From Enterospora canceri (lineage: Eukaryota; Microsporidia; Enterocytozoonidae): a DNA stretch of 14,335 nt. Each line of letters opens with the position of its first letter. Position 1 is the first letter of the stretch. This document shows, one piece after another, positions 4,354 through 11,377 of this stretch. The notes under the pieces are model-generated. The model ran no database searches. It saw only the letters and a list, made by a program, of their open reading frames with translations, and was not told where the DNA came from. A program made the position numbers and the translations under genes. Location: positions 1-14,335 of the forward strand of contig LWDP01000044.1 in NCBI GenBank assembly GCA_002087915.1, read 5' to 3'.

Positions 4354-5253
4354 TCATAGATTCAGGTATTCCAGCTTGCTGATTATGTTTATCAGGGTGG
4401 TTTTTGTAATTGGTTTTGATAACACGCCCATAATCTGCTTGTTTCTTGCTAGATCTGAATCCAATGTGATAGCATTATTTGATATTACAATAATGCATAT
4501 CTGTTTGTTAATACTGTGTATTTTTACAATCATTTCCATAAAATGCTTGTTTTCCTTGCTTACAATTACAAATTTGAATGTCATTTGATTCATAATTTCA
4601 CTCATTCTTGCGGTATCTGATGCTATTAACGCATTGAATCCACATTCACGTAGCATTTTGTGTGGATTTGTTGCATCTTTTTCGTTTTCATCACAAATCA
4701 AGTATGTTTTTCCTATTTTTCTGATTTCATTATGTTCCTTGACTTTATTTAGTTCCTTTCTGAGCTCAATTATGTCGTTAATCATGATACCTAACTGTTT
4801 TGCTATTGCTGTCAGGATATTTATGGTGCAGTTGCTAAATAAAACACTCACATTAGCATCATTATCGTTATTTTCTAATGAATCACTTGATAAATATGTC
4901 TCCCCTATAATATTTGAATTCCCATTCTCTTTCTGCCTGTTTATCTTACGCATTTTGTCGTATCTTCCCTTGATAAAATGTGTGTGCTTGAATACCCACA
5001 CTCTCATGCCGTATATTCTGCTGATTTCTTCAGGGACCCTTTGCTTGTGAAATCCATATTTATTCAATTGCCTTACGAATGAACTTATTTTGGAATTACC
5101 AAAGTAGACATTCAGCACATGTTTGGCAAACCTGATTGGTTTGAAAATGATAAATGATTTCCCATCATTAGACCAGCCAATCATGTCACTATTTCCAGCA
5201 TCTTCAATCATTGCAAGCAGTTTTCGAACAAATCTACAAATTACATCTTCCAT
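4354..5253 (-). CDS. HSF-type transcription factor with degenerate receiver domain (Skn7-like)
   Basis: This is a predicted nuclear DNA-binding protein of 299 residues. Residues 5-104 are an HSF-type winged helix: FVRKLLAMIED, a SSFVRQLNKYGFHKQ recognition-helix block at 57-71, and VWVFKHTHFIKGRYDKM. Residues 105-140 are a Ser/Asn/Asp-rich linker, and 140-175 a probable coiled coil. Residues 181-298 follow the order of a response-regulator receiver: beta1 with acidic pair D188-E189 (TYLICDENE), the CGFNALIASDTARMSEIM block, beta3 KFVIVS, beta4 CIIVIS, and VLSKPITKTTLINII with the conserved Lys280. The phospho-accepting Asp at the end of beta3 is replaced by Ser232, so phosphorylation there is unlikely. 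HSF plus coiled coil plus receiver is the layout of fungal Skn7. The start at 5253 has CCC directly upstream. The HSF domain is near certain; the receiver fold is inferred from pattern. Confidence 0.88.
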   Translation of the reverse strand: MEDVICRFVRKLLAMIEDAGNSDMIGWSNDGKSFIIFKPIRFAKHVLNVYFGNSKISSFVRQLNKYGFHKQRVPEEISRIYGMRVWVFKHTHFIKGRYDKMRKINRQKENGNSNIIGETYLSSDSLENNDNDANVSVLFSNCTINILTAIAKQLGIMINDIIELRKELNKVKEHNEIRKIGKTYLICDENEKDATNPHKMLRECGFNALIASDTARMSEIMNQMTFKFVIVSKENKHFMEMIVKIHSINKQICIIVISNNAITLDSDLARNKQIMGVLSKPITKTTLINIISKLEYLNL

Positions 5254-10182: not shown

Positions 10183-10401
10183 ATGTTTGAGGATGACATA
10201 AAAGAAGAGTTGAATAAAATACTCATAAAATCAATGGAGCTGAGTTATAAAAGGAAGATGATACGTGAGAAACTGGAGGAAGCTAGCAAAAAACTGAATG
10301 CTAGAGAAGGAAGCAAGATCAAACAAAACACAGACGTGTACAAAATAGAGAAGTTGAAACAAGAGCTTGATGGTGTTCGTAGACACTTTCGTGGGTTATA
10401 G
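10183..10401 (+). CDS. Small coiled-coil protein, unknown
   Basis: This 72-residue protein is almost entirely a charged helix: EDDIKEELNKILIKSMELSY, then KRKMIREKLEEASKKL, a short polar break (REGSKIKQN), then DVYKIEKLKQELDGVRRHFR. Two helices with a break suggest a hairpin coiled coil, as in prefoldin-like or small kinetochore and chromatin-complex subunits, but there is no specific match. It starts 41 bases after the eL31 stop, and its last 6 bases overlap the convergent gene at 10396. A reading frame this short could occur by chance; the regular heptads, the tight fit between neighbours and the ATG start argue for a real gene. Confidence 0.6.
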   Translation: MFEDDIKEELNKILIKSMELSYKRKMIREKLEEASKKLNAREGSKIKQNTDVYKIEKLKQELDGVRRHFRGL

Positions 10402-10908
10402 CATAATATTCACATAGTATGATGCATTTAATGTTATATTTTGCCTGTCAAGTGTCTTGACCAGAAGGATTCTCTTCATAGATTTGTTGTAAATCAAATA
10501 AACAGATCCTGGCTCATCTCCGTGGAATTTGAATCCATAAATCGCAGCACCATCCACATTCACACAATGTTGTAACACCAATTTGACATATTCAATGCAC
10601 TCATTTGCTTCATCTTTGCATTTGCACACGTAGAACATGAAATTGTATAAATCTTGGCAAAATGCGTTGAAATCGACCTTTTCAAACATCCCCATATTCA
10701 ACTTGCTGAAATCATAGTGAATGAATGACATTTCTAGCGCACTTATAAAAAATCGTAGGGGCTTCTTGATTCTGCGAATCATCCTTTCTTCTTTTGACTT
10801 TTTGCAGCTGTAAGCTTCTATTTCAATCAGCTTGCCCGAAACAAACTCCATATATTTCTTGAAGAGCTCATTTGTTTTTAGTATGTGTGTTATTTCCATG
10901 AATTTCAT
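10396..10908 (-). CDS. Unknown protein with Cys-rich middle
   Basis: I do not recognise this 170-residue protein. The N-terminal half is helical and basic (EITHILKTNELFKKYMEFVS, SKEERMIRRIKKPLRFFISA). The middle holds FCQDLYNFMFYVCKCKDEAN, with Cys at CQ, CKC and CI and a later HCVN. The C-terminal third is beta-like (GAAIYGFKFHGDEPGSVYLI, RILLVKTL, then ITLNASYYVNIML). There is no signal peptide or clear membrane helix. CCCC lies 2-5 bases before the ATG at 10908, supporting that start over Met4. It lies 21 bases downstream of calcineurin B on the same strand and overlaps the small coiled-coil gene by 6 bases at its 3' end. Confidence 0.7.
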   Translation of the reverse strand: MKFMEITHILKTNELFKKYMEFVSGKLIEIEAYSCKKSKEERMIRRIKKPLRFFISALEMSFIHYDFSKLNMGMFEKVDFNAFCQDLYNFMFYVCKCKDEANECIEYVKLVLQHCVNVDGAAIYGFKFHGDEPGSVYLIYNKSMKRILLVKTLDRQNITLNASYYVNIML

Positions 10909-10929: not shown

Positions 10930-11346
10930 TTATAAGCAGTCCATCAGATCACACAGGTTGTTGTTTTTTCTGATGATTACTGATTTAAACTGCTCAAAAT
11001 CCATTGTAGTCGTATATTCGCCTATTTCTGCAAATGTTTTGTCTACGATATTTTGTATTTTCCAATTCTCAAGCATATTCTTATTAAGCAACTTCAGCAT
11101 GTCATATAGTTCCACTCCTGATATGAATCCATCATTGTCTTGGTCGTATAACTTGAATAGGAACCTCAACTTCGTATCTAAATCATTTGAGTTCAGAAAC
11201 TCAAATAAATCATTGCAAAGTCTTGTGAAATTGACCTTGTTTGCCTTGGTGTATTTTTTAATGAGAATGTTAGTGATTGGGTTGCTCTTGAATTCTCCAA
11301 CTGATGTTATGTCACTCTTCTTAACGTATTTATCCTTTCCATCCAT
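10930..11346 (-). CDS. CNB1: Calcineurin B regulatory subunit, reduced
   Basis: This is the predicted Ca2+-binding regulatory subunit of the calcineurin phosphatase, which would pair with a catalytic A subunit encoded elsewhere. From the ATG at 11346 it has 138 residues against about 170 in yeast and human. SNPITNILIKKY aligns with the QQNPLVQRVI region, and LDTKLRFLFKLYDQDNDGFI with the most conserved block. EF hand 3 (DQDNDGFISGVE, 68-79) is intact. EF1 (1-12) and EF2 (KYTKANKVNF) lack the Asp ligands, and EF4 is degenerate (EIGEYTTTMDFEQF), although IQNIVDKTF before it is conserved. The N-terminal myristoylation segment is missing. The frame stays open upstream for about 24 codons to a stop with no ATG, and its last residues (GCFDLL) still resemble the family's KRFKKLDL, so a non-ATG start such as TTG at 11376 cannot be excluded. 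Confidence 0.88.
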   Translation of the reverse strand: MDGKDKYVKKSDITSVGEFKSNPITNILIKKYTKANKVNFTRLCNDLFEFLNSNDLDTKLRFLFKLYDQDNDGFISGVELYDMLKLLNKNMLENWKIQNIVDKTFAEIGEYTTTMDFEQFKSVIIRKNNNLCDLMDCL

Positions 11347-11377
11347 AAGGAGGTCAAAGCAACCAATAAATATCAAG

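Follow-up and report, generated by a model that had tools for sequence, protein, structure and literature searches.

A Skn7-like gene with a pseudo-receiver in Enterospora canceri

The window, the whole 14,335-nucleotide stretch of contig LWDP01000044.1 of the microsporidian Enterospora canceri, encodes on its minus strand a Skn7-like transcription factor whose C-terminal receiver domain carries a Ser in the place of the phospho-accepting Asp. The first-pass annotation of this DNA had pointed to this residue, Ser232, in a receiver-like domain, and both the sequence and the AlphaFold2 model bear it out. The gene and its parts are as follows.

4354-5253, minus strand: Skn7-like transcription factor gene, 299 amino acids, intact open reading frame (ORF)
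4933-5232, minus strand: HSF-type DNA-binding domain, residues 8-107 (Pfam and genome profile search)
4717-4863, minus strand: long helix, probable coiled coil, residues 131-179 (AlphaFold2 model of the single chain)
4360-4707, minus strand: pseudo-receiver domain, residues 183-298, five alternating strands and helices
4687-4692, minus strand: acidic pair D188-E189 after beta1, kept (sequence)
4558-4560, minus strand: Ser232 (AGC), phospho-acceptor place, end of beta3 (sequence and AlphaFold2 model)
4516-4557, minus strand: segment after Ser232, residues 233-246, two residues shorter than in fungal Skn7
4480-4482, minus strand: Ser258, Thr position, end of beta4 (model)
4414-4416, minus strand: Lys280 after beta5, kept (model and alignment)

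In agreement with the Skn7-like HSF domain that had been proposed, the 299-residue protein matches the Pfam HSF_DNA-bind family at 97.8 bits (cut-off 22), among PDB sequences it scores highest with Chaetomium thermophilum Skn7 (77.7 bits), and the top Foldseek match of its DNA-binding domain is 5d5x, Skn7 on DNA. A C-terminal receiver fold on the same chain as the HSF domain, the mark of a Skn7-type protein, is likewise predicted. The features of a functional receiver are present in D188-E189, K280 and Ser258 at the end of beta4, but the acceptor Asp at the end of beta3 is replaced by Ser232. A receiver fold in which one or more of the five catalytic residues are missing is a pseudo-receiver, as had been supposed here, and it is the Asp that is absent. 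The expected similarity to the Response_reg profile is recovered in part: the gene gives the single match in a six-frame profile search of the genome, but in Pfam the protein reaches 18.6 bits, under the cut-off. Two other Pfam matches, Guanylate_cyc (14.9 bits) and VASP_tetra (13.1 bits), are also under their cut-offs.

Phosphorelay genes in the E. canceri genome

The assembly comprises 2,242,678 bases in 75 contigs, with the Skn7-like gene on contig 41. The microsporidian small-subunit ribosomal RNA model RF02542 is matched over its full length (1210.7 bits), confirming the kind of genome that had been suspected from the letters of the window. The upstream histidine kinase and HPt protein of a functional receiver system were not found, as a six-frame search of this possibly incomplete assembly, with these kinase profiles only, returned no match to HisKA or HPt. 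Four HATPase_c matches were found, so the search is able to see that ATPase fold. They read as Top2, PMS1, MLH1 and Hsp90 (Hsp90 was checked with Pfam, whereas Top2, PMS1 and MLH1 are named from a reading of their sequences), which leaves no histidine kinase hidden among them. The control genomes for these profile searches were prokaryotes. The claim that phosphorelay control has been lost is well supported.

A Yap1-like partner is not established, as the four bZIP_1 matches in the genome are all under cut-off (best 20.8 bits). The ClpB_D2-small profile has no match in the E. canceri genome, and therefore Hsp104 may be absent from it, whereas such a gene is listed for Nosema ceranae (PMC6531884; literature is cited here by PMC number, in each case for part of the text only).

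Replacement of the acceptor Asp across microsporidia

The feature first described from this one genome is present in E. canceri, but it is common to the microsporidian side of the tree in the rows examined. The acceptor Asp is absent from 70 of 71 microsporidian rows, in which this position is Ser in 56, Tyr in 9, Gly in 3, Cys in 1 and His in 1; its loss throughout the orthologues therefore holds save for one row, P0029, which has Asp. By contrast, of the 51 fungal-type rows 49 carry Asp here and 2 carry Glu. The interval from position 232 to 246 spans 14 residues in 71/71 microsporidian rows and 16 in 51/51 fungal rows, where the stretch includes Asp-Gly in every case. A chance likeness to a receiver was considered, and is ruled out by the fold, the alignment and the shared deletion.

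These rows derive from several searches. The first homologue search returned the protein itself, two yeast-like Skn7 rows (P0002, P0003) and two receiver-less HSF rows, and the first microsporidian rows came from a search restricted to the DNA-binding domain. The alignment search supplied its best 120 of 1252 matches, beyond which N. ceranae and the early-branching groups may lie. With fungal P0002 and P0003 added, and the receiver-less HSFs P0004 and P0005 dropped, 122 rows were aligned, of which 71 are microsporidian (E. canceri, 28 named rows and 42 that group with them in the tree) and 51 fungal-type. Setting aside E. canceri and 11 Encephalitozoon-like rows, which form one clade, leaves 59 core microsporidian rows.

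The surroundings of the acceptor are conserved to differing degrees. Of the 56 Ser rows, 54 (E. canceri among them) are acidic at both places of the acidic pair, all 56 retain at least one acidic residue, and 55 have the Lys, the remaining one being gapped. Over all 71 rows, Lys stands at position 280 in 59, with one more gapped, and the beta4 Thr position is S or T in seven, including E. canceri, having been replaced mostly by Val, Ala, Gly or Ile. In the core rows, Ser occupies position 232 in 55 of 59 and Gly in three, Lys is present in all 58 for which a score is possible, and conservation within the receiver is highest in the four columns 188, 232, 280 and 281, with the Ser column ranking first to third after thinning of rows. 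The Encephalitozoon-like rows have neither residue (Ser 0/11, Lys 0/11). The protein extends beyond position 280 in 70 of 71 rows, the exception (P0020) being called partial by its source, and a receiver fold is predicted in two distant members.

In a tree of the 71 microsporidian and 15 fungal-type rows (36 of the 51 were left out of the trees), built without the acceptor and deletion columns, fungal Skn7/Prr1 and microsporidia separate at 100. The E. canceri protein groups with the other 70 microsporidian rows, in a tree without Hsf1 rows, and its long branch makes its precise position uncertain. On this tree the two-residue deletion takes one change, and acidic versus non-acidic acceptor two, the second being the Asp of P0029. 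Both the Asp loss and the deletion thus lie on the branch between fungi and microsporidia as sampled, a branch that early-branching relatives, absent from the rows, could split. Since it is common to the microsporidian rows, the acceptor loss is probably ancestral there, and conserved. A tree of the DNA-binding domain only, with three changes for acidity and two for the deletion, was set aside, having too few columns and one misplaced fungal row; we therefore rely on the larger tree.

A second HSF protein and sites in chaperone promoters

Two HSF-domain genes were found in the genome: the Skn7-like gene, and a gene for a 232-residue protein with no receiver match (L003, 1444-2142, plus strand), which may correspond to the HMS2-like protein of N. 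ceranae. The chaperone loci L007, L010, L011 and L048 have heat shock element cores, the octamer TTCTAGAA, in their promoters: Hsp70, BiP-like Hsp70 and DnaJ genes are preceded by a pair of them near -45 and -74, with a spacing of 29 bp. The sites are at -46 and -75 for Hsp70, at -44 and -73 for the BiP-like gene and, with the same 29-bp spacing, at -43 and -72 for DnaJ, which was examined later; the Hsp90 promoter has a single site at -45. The names HSP70, DnaJ and Hsp90 rest on Pfam, and "BiP-like" and "mitochondrial-type" on a reading of the sequence. A further Hsp70-like gene on C10 (L013, L054), with a site at -76, scores 49.7 bits for HSP70 in the genome profile search and has no Pfam family for its translation; it is not counted among the chaperone promoters.

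The octamer occurs 88 times in the genome searched versus 31 for its reversed control, and a three-unit heat shock element (HSE) pattern 50 times versus 21. Of 74 mechanically defined control ORFs with a length of 200 amino acids or more, for which 30 of the 43 control loci had entered via the three-unit HSE pattern, one has a site at -50 to -40, and this is Hsp70 again, in an overlapping locus. Neither the Skn7-like gene nor the second HSF gene has a TTCnnGAA or GAAnnTTC within 200 bases. Taking these chaperone-promoter sites with the heat shock elements in some chaperone promoters of N. ceranae (PMC6531884) and the crystal of C. thermophilum Skn7 on HSE DNA (title of 5d5w), one or both HSF-domain proteins should drive chaperones in E. 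canceri.

A further pair of TTCTAGAA with the 29-bp spacing is present in L070 (799 and 828), within the divergent promoter that separates the gene of a ubiquitin-conjugating enzyme from an ORF of 170 residues. This ORF has no family above cut-off, although its sequence resembles an Hsp70 exchange factor on reading.

Fate of the receiver after loss of the phosphorelay

Our hypothesis, which we judge on balance to be probable, is that the E. canceri gene is a microsporidian Skn7 that has lost relay control, has kept its receiver as a fixed module and is a probable reader of HSF sites. Histidine-phosphorelay control would have been lost on the branch leading to the microsporidia examined, where the acceptor Asp would also have become Ser and the two residues aligned to the fungal Asp-Gly would have been deleted from the beta3-alpha3 region. 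The fold would have been kept, along with the Lys and acidic residues around the Ser in most rows, and the receiver would now most likely be a fixed-conformation dimerization or partner-docking module. Together with the 232-residue protein, the Skn7-like protein would probably read the HSF sites in chaperone promoters. As a receiver fold is still predicted while the Asp is lost in nearly all rows, the receiver has apparently been retained for another use after the relay vanished. This hypothesis draws on the predicted fold, the residue states, their phylogenetic spread, the lack of HisKA and HPt matches and the promoter sites; from these we infer docking by the receiver, binding to DNA and control of chaperones, as well as which HSF protein is the binder and any switching. 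The interpretation given in the first-pass annotation therefore stands as regards a Skn7-like protein, a pseudo-receiver and relay genes that were not found, while for the function replacing phosphorylation, suggested there to be a new input or a constitutive dimer or adaptor role, we infer rather than observe.

Several observations weigh against our hypothesis. In row P0029, whose close relatives carry Ser or Gly, the acceptor is Asp, possibly a reversion. The E. canceri receiver has a median identity of 15% to other microsporidian receivers (43% for the DNA-binding domain) and its row is the longest end branch of the tree, at 3.67 changes per column; both figures are consistent with weak constraint in this lineage. 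Nor is the yeast precedent complete. Of the two Asp-independent features discussed for fungal Skn7 (PMC8510515), Ser/Thr at D+10 is present in 50/51 fungal and, by simple count, 0/71 microsporidian rows (14/71 if the deletion shifts D+10 to +8), and Cys at DD+17 in 51/51 and 30/71, respectively. Because E. canceri has Phe at DD+17, the nearest receiver Cys being Cys 204, two residues earlier, and no Ser/Thr at +8 or +10, neither feature explains its receiver. As for the chaperones, the 232-residue protein could do all that is ascribed to the Skn7-like protein in DNA binding and chaperone control, there is no TTCnnGAA or GAAnnTTC within 200 bases of the mitochondrial-type Hsp70 gene, and of 17 distinct sites in L049-L066, the one near -45 lies at -49 before a TLC transporter gene.

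There is also a bolder alternative, which we put forward tentatively, as less likely than not. The receiver may have been rebuilt on the microsporidian stem, with the Ser and the loop deletion making a selected Ser-Lys-acidic site that would give relay-free input, by a ligand or Ser modification, to an HSF-class master chaperone regulator; the Encephalitozoon lineage would later have dismantled the pocket and kept the scaffold. That this site binds a metabolite or metal, so that the domain senses directly, is unlikely. It would suit the ranking of positions 188, 232, 280 and 281 as the most conserved receiver columns of the core rows, and the way in which the 56 Ser rows all keep an acidic residue, and 55 the Lys, where the Encephalitozoon-like rows have neither Ser nor Lys. 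However, no ligand is known, the same residues may serve packing only and, since those 11 rows are one clade, their joint loss may be a single event. An input swap, in which the conserved Ser is a switch phosphorylated by a Ser/Thr kinase in the old pocket with its Lys and acidic residues, is no more probable. The constancy of Ser (55/59) and Lys (58/58) in the core rows is consistent with it, as is the Ser/Thr phosphorylation of yeast Skn7 under oxidative stress (PMC3871606), but three core rows have Gly, and as the last residue of central strand beta3 in the model, the Ser would be awkward for a protein kinase.

Marginally less probable again is a relic, decaying without a role since the relay was lost. 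Decay would fit the Response_reg score of 18.6 bits, the very long E. canceri branch, a receiver less conserved than the DNA-binding domain, and an Encephalitozoon-like clade that has lost both Ser and Lys, but it sits poorly with 70 of 71 rows running past position 280 (all but the partial P0020), with the fold predicted in two distant members and with a Ser column that is among the four most conserved, and first to third after thinning. A redox sensor answering oxidation via the DD+17 Cys (Hypothesis 1 of PMC8510515) is very improbable, since this Cys, although found in all 51 fungal and 30 microsporidian rows, is lacking from 41 of 71 of the latter, and E. canceri has Phe there, with Cys 204 two residues off.

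Relation to known systems

Like fungal Skn7/Prr1, the protein has an HSF-type DNA-binding domain whose best sequence and fold matches are Skn7, a helical linker and a C-terminal receiver. Unlike them, it has Ser for Asp at the acceptor with two residues fewer after it, has neither the D+10 Ser/Thr nor the DD+17 Cys, and belongs to a genome with no HisKA or HPt match. It shares with Hsf1 its DNA-binding domain family and TTCnnGAA sites in chaperone promoters, but it bears a receiver, which canonical Hsf1 is not known to have; the only HSF-domain genes found in E. canceri are the Skn7-like and 232-residue ones.

That a microsporidian can have a receiver-bearing Skn7-like protein while lacking SLN1 has been known since 2019 (PMC6531884). 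The protein is NCER_101594 of N. ceranae, a species reported to have a heat shock response and an HMS2-like protein, with neither a canonical HSF nor SLN1, in which the Skn7-like protein, the HMS2-like protein or both are speculated to run the heat shock genes. The E. canceri protein resembles it in being Skn7-like with a receiver, in a phylum without SLN1, with heat shock elements at some chaperones. The acceptor residue is not mentioned in the cited part of the description of NCER_101594, and its sequence lies outside the present rows, in which two other Nosema members carry Ser. The same paper lists Hamiltosporidium tvaerminnensis as having neither the Skn7-like nor the HMS2-like protein; by contrast, row P0006, from this species, is a Skn7-like protein.

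What appears to be new here is a Skn7 with a pseudo-receiver, its acceptor Asp lost, spread over microsporidia. A literature search of titles and abstract openings, with subscription papers and supplements largely outside it, returned no paper on a lost Asp in microsporidian Skn7, although the supplementary alignment of PMC6531884 may show the acceptor residue; "microspor" is absent from the main text of the fungal receiver survey PMC8510515. The pseudo-receivers of bacteria, plants (PRR) and Ascomycota (Rim15) also have a receiver fold missing a key catalytic residue, but there the acceptor is most often Glu (PMC12632262), whereas microsporidian Skn7 has mostly Ser and a loop deletion, in an HSF-type factor. 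Rim15 is the one characterized fungal pseudo-receiver to the knowledge of that 2025 review, which describes the switching mechanisms of the bacterial ones as remaining a mystery (PMC12632262).

Among the microsporidia examined, nearly all have a response regulator that outlives its phosphorelay, and instead of drifting, the catalytic Asp has given way to a conserved Ser. Nature thereby offers a test, in many species, of the work of a Skn7 receiver whose Asp is not phosphorylated. The same question has been raised for yeast under oxidative stress (PMC8510515) and for pseudo-receivers more widely. The finding also bears on chaperone control in microsporidia, N. ceranae being reported without canonical HSF (PMC6531884).

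Neighboring genes

Elsewhere in the window, a Maf1-like RNA polymerase III regulator (10396-10908, minus strand; 31 bits, cut-off 28.9) lies next to an EF-hand protein that reads like calcineurin B (10930-11376, minus strand). The same contig carries a MADS-box gene at 351-830 on the plus strand (SRF-TF, 61 bits); yeast Skn7 interacts with the MADS protein Mcm1.
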